The position numbers were made by a program, and so were the translations under genes. This document shows, in pieces, positions 7,619 through 14,349 of a DNA stretch of 64,000 nucleotides (the stretch's first letter is position 1; every line of letters starts with the position of its first letter). The stretch lies in the NCBI RefSeq assembly GCF_000374105.1, contig NZ_KB893650.1, positions 428,862 to 492,861 of the forward strand, given 5' to 3'. The notes under the pieces are model-generated. The model did no database searches, was not told the DNA's origin, and saw only the letters and a list, made by a program, of their open reading frames with translations. This DNA comes from Kangiella aquimarina DSM 16071. Lineage in GTDB: Bacteria > Pseudomonadota > Gammaproteobacteria > Enterobacterales > Kangiellaceae.

Positions 7619-8185
7619 TCAGGCCTGCTTAAGCACGAGGCGACGATAGCCCCACTCTCCAATAAACAATAACCCCATGAGCAGGTAGGAAATTAGCCCG
7701 TTATAAAGAGCCCATATTTCAACCGATGTGAAAAAAACCGTATACAGAGAAACTAAGATATTTATTATAAAAAATAAACACCATATCTTAGTGACCTTAG
7801 TGGTATAAGGAATCGCTTCGGGAGGGAGTTCACTGGTTTGCAGGCGAGCAAATCGCTCGATGATTGTTGGTGGAGCGTACAGGCTATAACCGAAAACAGC
7901 CAAGAAACTGCCTGTAATGATTACAGGATACAATTTTAAACCTAGAGCCGAGTTCAATATAAAGCTTAAACCGGCCACTAAAAGCCCTACCACTAATACA
8001 ATAAGCCAAAGCCCCTTCATGGTTTCAATCAGTTTGCTACGAGCTATAAAGCCCCGTAGCAAAACCAGTGCGGCCAGGATAATTGCAATTGTTTTAGGTT
8101 GTAGATGCTGTAAACCAAAATAAACCGCAATGGGATACAGCAATACCACAAAGGCAATAAGAAACTTAAAGAGGTGTTGGAGCAT
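7619..8185 (-). CDS. apeG: integral membrane protein of the aryl-polyene cluster (COG4648-like)
   Basis: 188 residues with about six hydrophobic segments spread over the whole length (for example LFKFLIAFVVLLYPIAVYFG and GLWLIVLVVGLLVAGLSFIL). No catalytic motif is visible. Proteins of this type sit between the ACP and ligase genes of aryl-polyene loci, and their biochemical role is not established. The start ATG overlaps the stop of the ACP gene by one base, and only 9 bp separate its stop from the ligase start, so it belongs to the operon. It may help couple the cytoplasmic synthase to the membrane (inference). Confidence 0.75.
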   Translation of the reverse strand: MLQHLFKFLIAFVVLLYPIAVYFGLQHLQPKTIAIILAALVLLRGFIARSKLIETMKGLWLIVLVVGLLVAGLSFILNSALGLKLYPVIITGSFLAVFGYSLYAPPTIIERFARLQTSELPPEAIPYTTKVTKIWCLFFIINILVSLYTVFFTSVEIWALYNGLISYLLMGLLFIGEWGYRRLVLKQA

Positions 8186-8442
8186 CAGTTATGGACTAGA
8201 TCATAAACTGCATCAACAACATGTTGCATGGTACGAACTGCCTTGAAAGTATCAGGATTAACGGATTTACCAGTCATTTCCTGAAGTTTAATTACCAGAT
8301 CAACAGTATCAATACTATCTAAGTCAAGGTCAGTATATAAGTTTGCATCAAGGGTAATATCATCACCATCAACTTCAAAATCGTCTACTAAAATGGTAAC
8401 CAGTTCTTGATAGATGTGATCCTTGGTATCAAATTTAGCCAT
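8185..8442 (-). CDS. apeF: acyl carrier protein, second of a pair
   Basis: 85 residues, highly acidic. Ser43 in the motif DLDLDSIDTVDL is the phosphopantetheine attachment site, the D-S-I-D variant of the DSL motif. The protein would carry the growing polyene or the aryl starter as a thioester. Its ATG overlaps the stop codon of the upstream ACP gene (ATGA) and its own stop overlaps the start of the membrane-protein gene, so both are translationally coupled. Which of the two carriers takes the starter and which the chain cannot be told from sequence. Confidence 0.9.
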   Translation of the reverse strand: MAKFDTKDHIYQELVTILVDDFEVDGDDITLDANLYTDLDLDSIDTVDLVIKLQEMTGKSVNPDTFKAVRTMQHVVDAVYDLVHN

Positions 8443-8705
8443 CAGTTAGCACCTCTTTGTTGTTCAATAAACGAAGCAAGAGTACCTACTGAATAAAAAT
8501 GCTTTTTCGACTCTTCAGAGTCAGAATCCAGTTTAATATTGAATTGCTTTTTTATTGCGAGCCCCAATTCAAGCGCATCGATAGAGTCAAGACCTAACCC
8601 ATCGCCAAACAATGGCTCATCAGTTTCTATGTCATCAATGCTAATATCTTCAAGATCAAGAGAGTCAATAATGATCTCTTTAATCTCGGTTTCTAAGGAT
8701 TTCAT
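8442..8705 (-). CDS. apeE: acyl carrier protein, first of a pair
   Basis: 87 residues, acidic four-helix ACP. Ser41 in GDGLGLDSIDALELG is the phosphopantetheine site. It differs clearly from the second ACP (glycine-rich approach to the serine, FGDGLG), so the pair is not a recent duplication. The gene overlaps the acyltransferase gene upstream by 26 bp and the second ACP by four bases. The paired carriers match the ApeE/ApeF arrangement of aryl-polyene loci; the individual symbols are assigned by order only. Confidence 0.9.
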   Translation of the reverse strand: MKSLETEIKEIIIDSLDLEDISIDDIETDEPLFGDGLGLDSIDALELGLAIKKQFNIKLDSDSEESKKHFYSVGTLASFIEQQRGAN

Positions 8706-9480
8706 TTTGTGCCACTTCCTCTTTAAAAACGGTCTTAATATGCTCCGTTAATCGTCGTGCTGCGATTGATTCATTTTTTTCTTGGTTAATGAACGGAGTA
8801 ATGTCAATTTCCTCTACAACCCTCATCGTAAAGTATGCTTTACGGTCAGGGATTTGATACCACTTTTCTTGTTTAGTTAGTGTGGTAGGGTCACAGTCAA
8901 TAATTACCGGTAACAGATTAGTCTGACAACGTATTGCAATATTGGCTGCGCCACGCTGTAGTTTAATAGGTTTATTCGGAACAGTCCGGGTACCCTCAGG
9001 AAATATCACGAGATTATAACCTTCCTGTAGGCTTTTTTTACAGTTTTGAATGAGTTTATTTACATCTTGGTCATTGTTGATGAAATCAGCGACACGCACT
9101 ACCCGTTTAAGGAAAAAGTTATTCCAGAGCCCCTGCTTTACTACGCAATCAGCATTTGGAATTAAGGAAATCAGTGCGACAACGTCAATTAGGGTCGGGT
9201 GATTGGCAATAACAATTTTACCCTCGATACCTTCCAGCTGTGCTTTGGCGGCAGTTAAGTCGAACTTGAAGATTCCGAGCGCCTGCATAAAGCGAATAAA
9301 AATATACCAGGAGCGATGAATGAGATAGCGGGCCTTACGTTTTCGAACTAAGGGGTCCCGGTTGAAAAGTGCGATGACTGGAAACACAAACAAGGATAAT
9401 AATAGTCCGCCAATACCAAAGGTAGTGAAAGATAGGCCGGTGGCAAAAACCCGCCAAATGTAATTGATTTTATTAAACAT
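8680..9480 (-). CDS. apeD: PlsC-like lysophospholipid acyltransferase of the aryl-polyene cluster
   Basis: About 266 residues from the ATG at 9480; an ATG at 9507 would add nine residues and lengthen the overlap with the ketosynthase-like gene. The acyltransferase motif I (N-H-x4-D) is seen in IANHPTLIDVVAL, and the glycerol-phosphate binding motif in FPEGTRT. An N-terminal hydrophobic helix (VFATGLSFTTFGIGGLLLSLFVF) anchors it in the inner membrane. Enzymes of this family transfer acyl groups to glycerolipid hydroxyls; here the role is probably to attach an acyl or polyene chain to the lipid part of the product. Overlaps both neighbours. Confidence 0.83.
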   Translation of the reverse strand: MFNKINYIWRVFATGLSFTTFGIGGLLLSLFVFPVIALFNRDPLVRKRKARYLIHRSWYIFIRFMQALGIFKFDLTAAKAQLEGIEGKIVIANHPTLIDVVALISLIPNADCVVKQGLWNNFFLKRVVRVADFINNDQDVNKLIQNCKKSLQEGYNLVIFPEGTRTVPNKPIKLQRGAANIAIRCQTNLLPVIIDCDPTTLTKQEKWYQIPDRKAYFTMRVVEEIDITPFINQEKNESIAARRLTEHIKTVFKEEVAQNEILRNRD

Positions 9481-10216
9481 TCTTAATGAATTTCCAGCGT
9501 GTATCATCCGTAGTTATGGCTACTGTAGAGGCCTTATTATATAAAAAGTCATAAAATGCCAGAGCCATTGGTAACTCAGGTACCTGCAAATTTGATTGTG
9601 GCTCAAACGACAGGCTAATACCAGATGGAGCGGTATTGGGGCTGGTTAGCAATAACGAAAGACTGTAACTGGGGTAAAGTTTATTCTGAAGTTCGGATAA
9701 AGGGTGGCTAACCTCAAGATCAAAGCATGTTAACAAGACCTGCTTCTCCGGAAATCTTTGCAATAAATTATAGCTTTCAAGCAATGCATAACCAAAAGTG
9801 TCTGAGCCAGCGGCAATGCTGGTTCCTGCCTGCTTATTTCTTGTGAAGATTGAGAAAAGACCCAATGAGGCATTATGGACCGATAAGCTGAAATCCTTTG
9901 GTGACACTTCATGCTCTTGATACATGCTATCAACAATACTGACGGTTCTGTTGAGCTCACCATGTTGGGAAGCAAACACACTCAGGCAATCTGCCGGACT
10001 GGAGGCTGCTTGCTCTATACAATTTAGAGAAGTATGCATAGCCAATTTACTCAGTCCGCTTAAGCGGCGGCGCTTGATAGGAGGTATTTGTTTAAGAGTA
10101 ATCGGGTCGAAATCAGCATGTTCTGTTAACGATGGCAGGTTACATGACTCTTTGTATCCAGGAGCAATCCAACAATATGAAGATAGAACTCCCAGTTTTA
10201 TAGTTTTATTATGCAT
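9473..10216 (-). CDS. apeC: beta-ketoacyl synthase-like chain length factor, first gene of the operon
   Basis: 247 residues, about the size of the short Ketoacyl-synt_2 family. It has thiolase-fold features (FASQHGELNRT, SVHNASLGLFSI, SIAAGSDTFGYALLE) but I see no catalytic Cys in the usual nucleophile position, as expected for a chain length factor that pairs with an active ketosynthase (ApeO:ApeC). That partner is not in the window and should lie beyond the left edge. This is the promoter-proximal gene: upstream sequence to 10360 holds no gene, only the terminator of the next transcription unit. The ribosome-binding site is weak. Confidence 0.82.
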   Translation of the reverse strand: MHNKTIKLGVLSSYCWIAPGYKESCNLPSLTEHADFDPITLKQIPPIKRRRLSGLSKLAMHTSLNCIEQAASSPADCLSVFASQHGELNRTVSIVDSMYQEHEVSPKDFSLSVHNASLGLFSIFTRNKQAGTSIAAGSDTFGYALLESYNLLQRFPEKQVLLTCFDLEVSHPLSELQNKLYPSYSLSLLLTSPNTAPSGISLSFEPQSNLQVPELPMALAFYDFLYNKASTVAITTDDTRWKFIKNV

Positions 10217-11393: not shown

Positions 11394-11427
11394 GAACATA
11401 AATGTAAATCTATGAAATTATCGGAAA

Positions 11428-12279
11428 TTAACTAATAGCATTCTTGATTTTATTCATGGCATTTTTCTCCAGCTGACGAATACGCTCTGCTGAAACACCA
11501 TATTTATCTGCCAAATCATGCAAAGTGGCTTTTTGGTCATTTAGCCAACGCTGTTGCAGGATATCCTGGCTTCTTTCATCCAGAGTTTTCAGAGCAGATA
11601 GTAGTCGAGTTTCACGTTGGTCTTGCCAATCTTCCTGCTCAATCGCTACCGCCGGATCAGAGTTTGGTGACTCCAGGTAATGAACCGGAGCATATACTGC
11701 ATCGTCATCGTCGCTGGCATGTGGTGCATCAAAGGAAGCGTCATGGGCATTCAAGCGCCCTTCCATTCGTCTGACTTCCTCTTCGCTTACCCCTAAATCC
11801 TGTGCTACGGCATTGATTTCATCATTATTAAGCCAGTTTAGGGTTTTCTTTTTAGAGCGAAGATTGAAGAACAATTTACGTTGTGCTTTGGTTGTCGCAA
11901 CTTTGACAATACGCCAGTTACGCAATACATATTCGTGAATTTCGGCTTTAATCCAGTGGACTGCAAAGGATACCAGACGCACCCCGACGCTAGGGTCAAA
12001 GCGCTTAACGGCTTTCATCAGGCCAATATTACCTTCTTGGATTAAATCGGCCTGTGGCAAACCATAACCACTGTAACTTCTAGCAATATGAACGACGAAA
12101 CGTAAGTGAGCCATTACTAACTGGCGAGCAGCTTCAAGGTCATTATGATCATGAAACTGATGGGCTAATTTTTGTTCTTCTTCAACGGAAAGGACAGGAA
12201 TAGCACTGACGGTACTGATATAACCATCAATACTGCCTGTTGGAACGGCTAACGCCATGTTCATTGGAATATTGCTCAT
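11428..12279 (-). CDS. rpoH: RNA polymerase heat-shock sigma factor sigma-32
   Basis: 283 residues, normal length. The diagnostic RpoH box QRKLFFNLR (about residues 133-141) distinguishes it from RpoS and RpoD. Region 2 is seen in [18 protein letters not shown] and [22 protein letters not shown], and region 4.2 in [20 protein letters not shown]. It directs RNA polymerase to heat-shock promoters. A strong GGAGG ribosome-binding site sits six bases before the ATG. Two CIRCE-like operators lie immediately upstream (12313-12370), suggesting HrcA repression. In many relatives rpoH is next to ftsX; here yceI lies between them. Confidence 0.97.
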
Positions 12280-12312
12280 GCATTCCCTCCGAGTGATAAA
12301 GATTGACCAATA

Positions 12313-12339
12313 TTAGCACTGTTTAACTGAGAGTGCTAA
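12313..12339. promoter_or_regulatory. CIRCE-like operator 1 (HrcA site) upstream of rpoH
   Basis: The two arms are TTAGCACTG (12313-12321) and GAGTGCTAA (12331-12339), nine bases apart. This matches the CIRCE consensus TTAGCACTC-N9-GAGTGCTAA with one mismatch in the last base of the left arm. It ends 33 bp upstream of the rpoH start codon. Confidence 0.88.
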
Positions 12340-12343
12340 TATT

Positions 12344-12370
12344 TTGGCACTCTGAACCTAAGAGTGCTAA
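12344..12370. promoter_or_regulatory. CIRCE-like operator 2 (HrcA site) upstream of rpoH
   Basis: The arms are TTGGCACTC (12344-12352) and GAGTGCTAA (12362-12370) with nine bases between, one mismatch from the CIRCE consensus. It is placed 31 bp from operator 1, about three helical turns, so two HrcA dimers could bind the same face. Confidence 0.88.
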
Positions 12371-12603
12371 TTCAATAAAAAGTTCAATACAAAATTAATG
12401 GGCTAGGCGAGGATTTATAAGGCCTGGCGGGTCATTTGTATCCTTGAAAGAAGTAACCTACACCTATCGTATTCATAAATAAAGTGAAACTTCTTAAAGT
12501 CTTGGACTAGCTTTGTAACAGGACATTAACAGACTGAAAGAGGGGTTCCTGCCAGACCAGAAAACAGTGAGTTAGCAGGAACCAGGGCTAAAAAGGGATG
12601 AGT
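12371..12603. other. remainder of the rpoH-yceI intergenic region
   Basis: Together with the CIRCE elements this makes a 324-bp gap between rpoH and yceI. I see no convincing coding frame. It should hold the rpoH promoter (AT-rich sequence around 12371-12400 adjoins operator 2) and a hairpin after yceI. No clear sigma-70 hexamer pair is visible. Confidence 0.5.
12544..12583 (-). terminator. stem-loop downstream of yceI, possible terminator
   Basis: A nine-base perfect inverted repeat (GGTTCCTGC / GCAGGAACC) encloses a 22-base loop, 20 bases past the yceI stop. Only a weak T-rich stretch follows it on the minus strand, so intrinsic termination is uncertain. Confidence 0.35.
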
Positions 12604-13176
12604 TTATTTAGCAGAAGCTTCAACTTCGATGATGATATGAACATCGTCACCTACCGCCGGTACTCCATAAATCATACCGAATTCCGAGCGTTTGATAGAA
12701 CCTGTCGCTGAAAAACCAACATGGGGCTCTTCACTCATTGGGTGAATCCCAGCTTGGTTAAGAGTTAAATCAAGAGTGATTGGTTTGGTAGTACCCAAAA
12801 TCGTTAAGTCACCATGTAACTTACCCGAATTCTCACCGGTTTTTTCGAGTTTGGTGCTCTTAAAAGTCATGGCTGGAAATTGCTCAACATCGAAAAAGTC
12901 GGCGCTGCGCATATGGTCATTCCACTTTTTATTCTCCAAATCAATGCTTTTGGTATTGATGGATACTTCAGTCTGAGCGGTTGACCAATCTTCAGGATCA
13001 AAGCTTAGAGTACCTTCAAAAGCACGAAACTTACCGTACGAGTTAGAGTAGCCTAAGTGGTTGACTTTAAATATAATTTGGCTATGAACCGTGTCAAATT
13101 CATAGTCGGCTGGCTTGGCATCGGCTGTAGCGGTTAACGCCAATGCGCTTACCACAAACGCTAAAAATGTCTTCAT
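12604..13176 (-). CDS. YceI-family periplasmic lipid-binding protein
   Basis: 190 residues with a signal peptide (MKTFLAFVVSALALTATADA, cleavage before KPADYEFD). The mature part is a typical YceI lipocalin-like barrel: the opening YEFDTVHSQIIFKVNHLGYS, the SADFFDVEQFPAMTFKS stretch and the closing segment GSIKRSEFGM are family hallmarks. YceI proteins bind isoprenoids such as polyprenyl chains in the periplasm, and some respond to pH or stress; the physiological role is not settled. It is monocistronic, between rpoH and ftsX, with about 200 bp of leader sequence. Confidence 0.92.
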   Translation of the reverse strand: MKTFLAFVVSALALTATADAKPADYEFDTVHSQIIFKVNHLGYSNSYGKFRAFEGTLSFDPEDWSTAQTEVSINTKSIDLENKKWNDHMRSADFFDVEQFPAMTFKSTKLEKTGENSGKLHGDLTILGTTKPITLDLTLNQAGIHPMSEEPHVGFSATGSIKRSEFGMIYGVPAVGDDVHIIIEVEASAK

Positions 13177-13380
13177 AATGAGTTTCCTTTTCCAGTTAAT
13201 AGTAAACGGTGTCTATTCAAACAAGCTTGGAGACTATTATCAAATAGCATAAAAGTATTTTGAGTATTACTTCAGGGTATAGTTACTGCATGTAACGATG
13301 ATAGCTAGTGTAAGACAAATCTGTGATAAAAAAGTGAAAGCCGCAAGTAGGCAAACGTTATATTAAGAGACAGTTCAAAC

Positions 13381-14349
13381 TTAAGTGGGCTGAATATCCT
13401 TGAGGTGCTTGCTAACAGAGAACCAGGCACCGAAAAGGCCAAGCGCAGAGCCAATAGCTAACAATGACAGAGTTTGTGTTGGAGCCAATCCAATCAACGA
13501 AAAGCCGCTGTTATAGAGTTCAGCGAGAGTAGAGGAGGGTTGTAACAGTAGGAACAATACAATATTGACCATCAAAGCAGCGAGCAGGGCAGCAATCAAA
13601 CCGTACCAGAAGCCACTATAAAGAAAAGGGCGTCTGATAAAGGCATCAGTCGCACCAACCAGTTTGATTACCTGGATTTCCTCACGACGGTTAAGAATAG
13701 CTAATCTAATGGTGTTGCCCACAATCAATAAGACGCCAAAAGCAAGCAAAATGCTTACAAAAGTGCCTATTTTCTGTGAAATTTCAAGAATGGCCTGATA
13801 GCGCTGAATCCACGCCATGTCCAGCTGAGCAATATCGACCATGGGATTTTGTTCAAGCTCCTGAGCCAGTTGCTCAAGCGAGGCTGCATCGGCATGGGTT
13901 TCATAGGGCGTCAGAATGATACTGTCCGGCAACGGATTTTCATTGAGGTAGTCCAGTGCATCGCCAAATCCTGATTGCTGTTTAAACTCTTCAATGGCCT
14001 CTTCCTTCGGAACTAGTACCACTTCTTTAAACTCAGGACGGAAACTCAATTCCTGAATCAGGTCGGCTCTTTGTTGCTGATTGACATTATCCTTCAGAAA
14101 CAGGGCCATTTGCACGCCACCGCTCCAGTTGCTGCTGATTGCCTTGGCATTGGAGCTGAAAACATAGAAGGCACTCGGGAGGGCTAATGCTATTGCTAAT
14201 ACAAGAATAGTAAGAAGACTATTTGCCGGATGCCGAAAAACATCCAGAAGGGTAGTCATCGCATTTTTCTTATGCAGTGTAATGGCCATCCTGAAACGAT
14301 CGATAAAACTGATCTTATAGGTGGTATTCTGGCGACTACTCTTACTCAT
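13381..14349 (-). CDS. ftsX: cell division protein FtsX
   Basis: 322 residues, four transmembrane segments in the FtsX arrangement: one near residues 45-65 (LLTILVLAIALALPSAFYVF), a periplasmic domain, then three C-terminal helices (VSILLAFGVLLIVGNTI onwards). With the ATPase FtsE it forms the ABC-type complex that recruits and activates septal peptidoglycan hydrolases through EnvC-like partners. It overlaps ftsE by eight bases and is cotranscribed with ftsE and ftsY. Confidence 0.95.
   Translation of the reverse strand: MSKSSRQNTTYKISFIDRFRMAITLHKKNAMTTLLDVFRHPANSLLTILVLAIALALPSAFYVFSSNAKAISSNWSGGVQMALFLKDNVNQQQRADLIQELSFRPEFKEVVLVPKEEAIEEFKQQSGFGDALDYLNENPLPDSIILTPYETHADAASLEQLAQELEQNPMVDIAQLDMAWIQRYQAILEISQKIGTFVSILLAFGVLLIVGNTIRLAILNRREEIQVIKLVGATDAFIRRPFLYSGFWYGLIAALLAALMVNIVLFLLLQPSSTLAELYNSGFSLIGLAPTQTLSLLAIGSALGLFGAWFSVSKHLKDIQPT

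Follow-up and report, generated by a model that had tools for sequence, protein, structure and literature searches.

We analysed a window of Kangiella aquimarina DSM 16071 (the whole 64 kb stretch, G000:C1:428862-492861, from a genome of 2,681,803 bases on 3 contigs) in which the heat-shock sigma factor gene rpoH, read on the minus strand, is preceded by two CIRCE inverted repeats. The features of this locus, in window positions, are as follows:

11428-12279, minus strand: rpoH, heat-shock sigma factor sigma-32, 283 aa (ORF; NCBIfam TIGR02392 rpoH_proteo, 417.8 bits, cut-off 323.1, equivalog level)
12285-12290, minus strand: likely ribosome-binding site GGAGGG of rpoH (read from the sequence)
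12310-12318, minus strand: extended -10-like TG-C-TAATAT (TGCTAATAT), formed where TAT follows the proximal CIRCE's right arm (TAnnnT in 20/20 genus genomes)
12313-12339, no strand assigned: proximal CIRCE, putative HrcA operator, 1 mismatch (pattern scan; arm conservation)
12334-12339, minus strand: weak -35-like TTAGCA, 4/6 to TTGACA, at the proximal CIRCE's left end (L106)
12344-12370, no strand assigned: distal CIRCE, putative HrcA operator, in 31 bp register with the proximal copy, 1 mismatch (pattern scan; arm conservation)
12359-12363, minus strand: TCTTA within the distal CIRCE, predicted -10 of a sigma-E-type promoter for rpoH (TGAACTT-N16-TCTTA, L106)
12380-12386, minus strand: TGAACTT, predicted -35 belonging with that sigma-E-type -10 (motif match; position read from the sequence)

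Scanning the window with the pattern TTAGCACTC-N9-GAGTGCTAA at up to 3 mismatches returned these two CIRCEs and no other match; each deviates from the consensus at one position, and they are separated by a 4 bp linker, with the rpoH start 33 bp beyond the pair. An earlier sequence-only reading had described two CIRCEs, one base off consensus each and 31 bp apart upstream of rpoH, and the pattern scan and the TIGR02392 match reproduced this description exactly. Dinucleotide shuffles of the window (n = 100) contained a mean of 0.02 CIRCE matches. A purine-rich stretch resembling the GGAGGG of rpoH is present in most of 10 alignment rows, and an Rfam scan of positions 11400-13400 gave nothing at gathering score. 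On the plus strand, a terminator-like hairpin (12421-12433) lies between rpoH and an ORF at 12604-13176. Elsewhere (7619-10216), the window has a row of four ORFs, of which two are small and acyl-carrier-protein-like, one is acyltransferase-like and one ketosynthase-like; the row resembles an aryl polyene or lipid synthesis cluster (all by eye).

The pair is preserved throughout the genus: all 20 Kangiella genomes examined carry it before rpoH at exactly 31 bp, so the repeats are indeed conserved in relatives, a point on which the sequence-only reading had depended. By column, in 13 genus genomes, the arms of the proximal CIRCE are 98-99% conserved against 74% for its spacer, and those of the distal CIRCE 93-98% against 59%; the linker is 87% and the 30 bp upstream 56% conserved. 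The family search yielded CIRCE matches in 40/40 genomes. At least one site of ≤2 mismatches precedes rpoH in 37 of these, where the upstream regions were mostly reached via the CIRCE itself and 6 via a search with RpoH, all 6 with CIRCE; the other 3 were without a found rpoH (no RpoH at E 1e-60 in G569 and G570, and none in the stretch of G572, whose site lies near a contig end). Two sites of ≤3 mismatches each were found before rpoH in 29 of the 37 genomes, distributed as Kangiella 20/20 (register 31 bp), g348 5/7 (four at 31 bp, one at 33), g349 2/3 (31 bp), g2 2/5 (30 bp), and g350 and g351 0/1 each. Some family members have only a single CIRCE at rpoH, and weaker second copies (4-5 mismatches) occur in G571, G575 and at the second rpoH paralogue of G573. 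The latter genome has two rpoH paralogues (L216 and L217), which share 69% and 52% identity with the window RpoH; each has a tandem CIRCE, the distal copy of the second paralogue having decayed to 4 mismatches. A term search for HrcA, rpoH, sigma and heat shock found none of these in the main text of a Kangiella comparative genomics paper (PMC6000758).

We further examined the rest of the HrcA circuit in the source genome. The hrcA gene, on which the sequence-only reading had relied, is present at C1:608241-608897 (TIGR00331, 319.5 bits, cut-off 197.2; Pfam, 216.5 bits) and is followed by a grpE-like ORF (by eye). Its product is similar in sequence to the solved structure 1stz, in which HrcA is a dimer. 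The sigma-E gene rpoE is also present (323.6 bits, cut-off 236.15). Genome-wide, three CIRCEs were found at ≤2 mismatches, two of them being the pair before rpoH and the third lying 102 bp ahead of groES. A scan to 3 mismatches, for which a reversed control pattern gave 2 matches, added a fourth site (C1:1611579) inside an unrelated, acetyltransferase-like ORF (by eye, L005), which we took for chance. An autoregulated hrcA operon was considered: the genome scan to 3 mismatches was empty before hrcA, and the best CIRCE resemblance in 200 bp spanning the hrcA start and in 210 bp preceding dnaK had 8 mismatches. The groES CIRCE (G000:C1:145624-145650, L004) overlaps a likely sigma-32 promoter, judged against the sigma-32 consensus, with its right half reading CTTGAG and CCCCATAT following in the leader. 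Across the genus, the CIRCE spacer and right arm together read CCTTGAG in 13/13 groES loci (L004, L191-L202), apparently since this right half also provides the -35 for the sigma-32 promoter ending in CCCCATAT. HrcA control of rpoH is the simplest reading of this arrangement. The sequence-only reading had placed the repressor and the sigma-32 circuits in series, but the circuit would not be purely serial: groESL has its own CIRCE, so that HrcA would act on rpoH and groESL in parallel.

A single CIRCE before rpoH proved to be common. Among the best 80 matches to the window RpoH (hereafter the named loci, mostly from beta- and gammaproteobacteria), 35 had a CIRCE of ≤3 mismatches within 600 bp upstream of rpoH, while 0/400 shuffled control regions had one even at ≤4 mismatches. 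A draw of 369 genomes from the class contained 279 with a CIRCE at ≤1 mismatch to a degenerate consensus. The class sites listed (75 loci from 36 of the 279 genomes; L121 and L175 could not be classified) placed CIRCE at groES in 32 genomes, at rpoH in 29 and at hrcA in 12, which makes groES a slightly commoner target than rpoH in the class. In a draw from the order, hrcA exceeded the cut-off in 22/197 genomes. All 22 had a CIRCE at rpoH and 17 also at groES, making rpoH the most consistent HrcA target in the hrcA-bearing genomes of the order, and in 5 of them (four from family f20, the fifth being G052 from f7) the rpoH CIRCE was the sole one found beside a heat-shock gene. Of the 175 hrcA-less genomes, 11 had sites, all of 2 mismatches, and these 12 sites had no rpoH, groES, hrcA, grpE or dnaK match in the surrounding 2.5 kb; likewise, no match to these genes was found in the 2.5 kb surrounding the second sites of G044 and G098. 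In the four f20 loci (L109-L112), the rpoH CIRCE comes after a shared TTGCAA...TATAGAT-like stretch, which is not the sigma-E layout (by eye). Upstream of rpoH in Lysobacteraceae and Xanthomonas (L064, L050), GCAGTC-N9-GACTGC replaces the GCACTC-N9-GAGTGC of other genera, with both arms changed, and L029 shows this change in part; a co-evolved HrcA specificity is possible.

A 2003 study by Permina and Gelfand and a 2007 paper on the RpoH of Geobacter sulfurreducens may already have dealt with CIRCE at rpoH. For G. sulfurreducens, a CIRCE upstream of rpoH was predicted in 2004 (Genome Biol, PMC545781). With this prediction and 35 of the 80 named loci, the surprise that the sequence-only reading had expressed at a CIRCE before rpoH does not hold for single sites. 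By sequence, a single CIRCE at rpoH is a widespread putative operator in beta- and gammaproteobacteria and is known as a prediction; the doubling alone is special. A strict core pattern of two CIRCEs 4-34 bases apart occurred in 2/369 class genomes (the window's own, and G354, at rpoH with a 42 bp register) and in 2/398 genomes of a phylum draw (the window's own, and G140), counts that are lower bounds because each draw holds one family member and the pattern requires perfect cores (the G173 pair would fail). The G140 tandem (L206) was discarded as no CIRCE, with no rpoH, groES, hrcA, grpE or dnaK match nearby. G039, from another family of the order, likewise has two CIRCEs before rpoH, in a 33 bp register. 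Overall, the doubled CIRCE at rpoH looks special to the Kangiella family, and no description of a tandem CIRCE at rpoH was found in searches of the openly accessible literature, including the available parts of PMC545781, PMC3989490, PMC10696704, PMC3557214, PMC6032397, PMC8762339 and PMC5904260.

The two copies differ in the promoter-like motifs that accompany them. We searched for the sigma-E-type promoter motif GGAACTT (≥6/7)-N15-17-TCnnA. It lies on or beside the distal CIRCE in 19/20 genus genomes (the exception is L224), with the -10 inside this CIRCE in 13/20 and 15-16 bp upstream of it in 6/20. A GGAACTT-like -35 (≥5/7) occupies the fixed place before the distal copy in 7/13 genomes and before the proximal copy in 0/13, while a -10-like TAnnnT follows the proximal CIRCE in 20/20 genomes and the distal CIRCE in 0/20. 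The match to TATAAT is 4/6 at both copies in 19/20 genomes, so the difference between proximal and distal lies in the first TA and the last T. In the window, the proximal TGCTAATAT likewise scores 4/6 to TATAAT, and scanning 12280-12600 with the sigma-70 consensus gave no promoter. Given the sigma-E-type motif under the distal operator, the cascade would probably start at sigma E.

Similar motifs accompany the rpoH CIRCEs of other bacteria. Both promoter motifs and the sigma-E threshold were set after viewing the named loci, and the class and groES sites, fetched later, serve as the test set. The sigma-E-type motif was found at 40/64 CIRCE-bearing rpoH genes (22/35 named, 18/29 class), with its -10 inside the CIRCE at 19 named and 15 class sites, and at none of the other CIRCEs (class groES, 0/32; genus groES, 0/13; hrcA, 0/12); 24 of the 64 rpoH sites fall below the threshold. 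The GGAACTT-like -35s cluster at a start 16 bases before the CIRCE (16/35 named, 14/29 class). The motif also occurs at 25 of the 45 named rpoH loci without CIRCE (1% in shuffles), so a sigma-E input to rpoH seems to be a more general feature. Directly after the CIRCE, [AT]AT is present at 53/64 rpoH sites (26/35 named, 27/29 class), compared with 0/32 class groES, 1/12 hrcA and 5/13 genus groES sites. The right arm TGCTAA and this flank combine into an extended -10, which matches TATAAT at ≥5/6 in 30/64 rpoH sites and in 0/32 groES and 0/12 hrcA sites. In the class alone, Fisher's test gave p = 3e-15 for the flank and p = 3e-8 for sigma E, values that treat the genomes as independent when they are related and some class genomes may share a species with genomes of the named loci. 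A selection of 13 order rpoH sites, several of them distal copies of pairs, does worse (flank, 4/13; sigma E, 7/13), and the four f20 genomes with an rpoH CIRCE have no sigma-E motif (by eye), with 3/4 lacking the flank. Class groES CIRCEs come instead after a TTGAC...TAT promoter. That the flank is merely an extended palindrome was set aside, the upstream flank not mirroring it (0.08-0.29 bits vs 0.69-1.88) and class groES sites lacking it, a rejection limited by the [AT]AT still seen at the 5/13 genus groES sites.

On this evidence, we propose, with a probability of roughly 65%, that HrcA controls rpoH through both CIRCEs, each the operator of its own promoter (one sigma-E-type, one sigma-70-type), making the sigma-E-to-sigma-32 cascade conditional on HrcA and GroE. 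The distal CIRCE would cover the -10 region of the sigma-E-type promoter, where HrcA would block sigma-E polymerase, and the proximal CIRCE would lie over the extended -10 of the sigma-70-type (housekeeping) promoter, where HrcA would block the housekeeping polymerase. In the unstressed cell, GroE-activated HrcA would sit on both operators and keep rpoH low. Unfolded protein would draw GroE off, or heat would weaken HrcA, so that HrcA leaves both operators and rpoH is read by sigma-70 polymerase, and additionally by sigma-E polymerase if the envelope is also stressed. Loss of HrcA activity would thus free rpoH and groESL together, and sigma 32 would then drive dnaK and the groESL operon freed from its own CIRCE, forming a coherent feed-forward loop that newly made GroE would close by restoring HrcA. 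Such sensing has precedent: according to PMC6032397, GroE raises the DNA binding of HrcA in Helicobacter pylori, which agrees with B. subtilis and C. trachomatis, and in other systems HrcA together with GroE is established as a thermometer.

It is also conceivable, if unlikely, that both CIRCEs serve one rpoH promoter, with the second copy only raising the affinity or cooperativity of HrcA over a three-turn spacing and the promoter-like motifs being incidental. The register, exactly 31 bp in 20/20 genus genomes (2.95 turns at 10.5 bp), would suit this reading, as would the 30, 33 and 42 bp of other lineages, all four spacings deviating by no more than about 0.15 turn from a whole number of helical turns at 10.5 bp; the dimer that HrcA forms in its solved structure and the [AT]AT flank at 5/13 genus groES CIRCEs point the same way. 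The cooperative binding that the sequence-only reading had suggested would fit the 31 bp spacing, as would an inherited 31-bp duplication unit. What a single promoter leaves unexplained is the division of motifs, in which the sigma-E -35 precedes the distal copy alone and TAnnnT follows the proximal copy alone, and the recurrence of these motifs where other rpoH genes have just one CIRCE. We consider it quite improbable that the repeats act mainly in mRNA, through a leader CIRCE hairpin, in the transcript of an upstream promoter, that alters rpoH translation or stability with temperature. The predicted sigma-E transcript does contain the complete proximal CIRCE, and a 96-nt stretch folds at -24 kcal/mol (z = -3.06; 0/200 shuffles as stable) with the ribosome-binding site mostly paired in the minimum-energy fold; yet any inverted repeat yields such a hairpin, the centroid fold leaves the ribosome-binding site free, the HrcA letters are kept in the arms while the spacers vary, and the rpoH CIRCE goes with hrcA in the order (22/22). 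Finally, a relic or chance repeat devoid of a regulatory role is very hard to credit and was rejected on conservation and shuffles, since no window shuffle (0/100) contained two sites, the pair is kept in every genus genome with arms at 93-99% against spacers at 59-74% (13 genomes), and the 22 hrcA-bearing order genomes all have an rpoH CIRCE.

If one operator per promoter is the correct reading, the Kangiella arrangement probably originated by duplication of a single CIRCE serving both promoters, as in many relatives, followed by a division of labour. We tentatively extend this, at a little under even odds, to a broader proposal: the rpoH CIRCE of many beta- and gammaproteobacteria would be a fused promoter-operator, with its left arm forming the sigma-E -10 and its right arm the housekeeping extended -10, so that one HrcA dimer could veto both inputs to sigma 32 and the cascade would be conditional on GroE and HrcA. 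The Kangiella family would have duplicated this element and split its functions, a case of cis-regulatory subfunctionalisation traceable in 37 genomes, and in some lineages (the four f20 genomes and one f7 genome) rpoH would be the sole HrcA target found. For a CIRCE overlapping the sigma-E and extended -10 elements of rpoH, too, the same literature searches gave no description. The question bears on why many proteobacteria keep both the repressor HrcA and a heat-shock sigma factor: were the fusion true, the folding state of the cytoplasm (GroE, HrcA) could veto the envelope-stress input of sigma E to the heat-shock regulon, and E. coli, in which a control search did not find the HrcA family, would lack this veto step. 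The Kangiella pair separates the two operators, so that each input could be tested by point mutation.

Compared with known systems, the Kangiella locus resembles that of G. sulfurreducens, where, in the available sections of PMC545781, the operator lies at -51 from the rpoH start, hrcA is in the genome and the site is listed as a candidate HrcA site. Unlike Kangiella, this delta-proteobacterium has a single CIRCE, and the same sections contain no sigma-E or extended -10 overlap; its hrcA-grpE-dnaK-dnaJ genes also have a CIRCE (PMC545781, same sections), whereas none was found before hrcA or dnaK in Kangiella. The operator and repressor family are those of HrcA/CIRCE at groESL and hrcA-grpE-dnaK in Bacillus subtilis, Chlamydia and Helicobacter, and the HrcA of H. 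pylori also covers core promoter elements (PMC6032397, available text). In contrast to these systems, the putative Kangiella target is a sigma factor gene with two operators that stand in different relations to its promoters. In E. coli, the P3 promoter of rpoH is sigma-E-dependent and of the GAACTT-N16-TCTGA type. Kangiella similarly has a sigma-E-type promoter motif before rpoH, but while E. coli P3 has no CIRCE, the predicted Kangiella promoter is covered or abutted by a putative HrcA operator.
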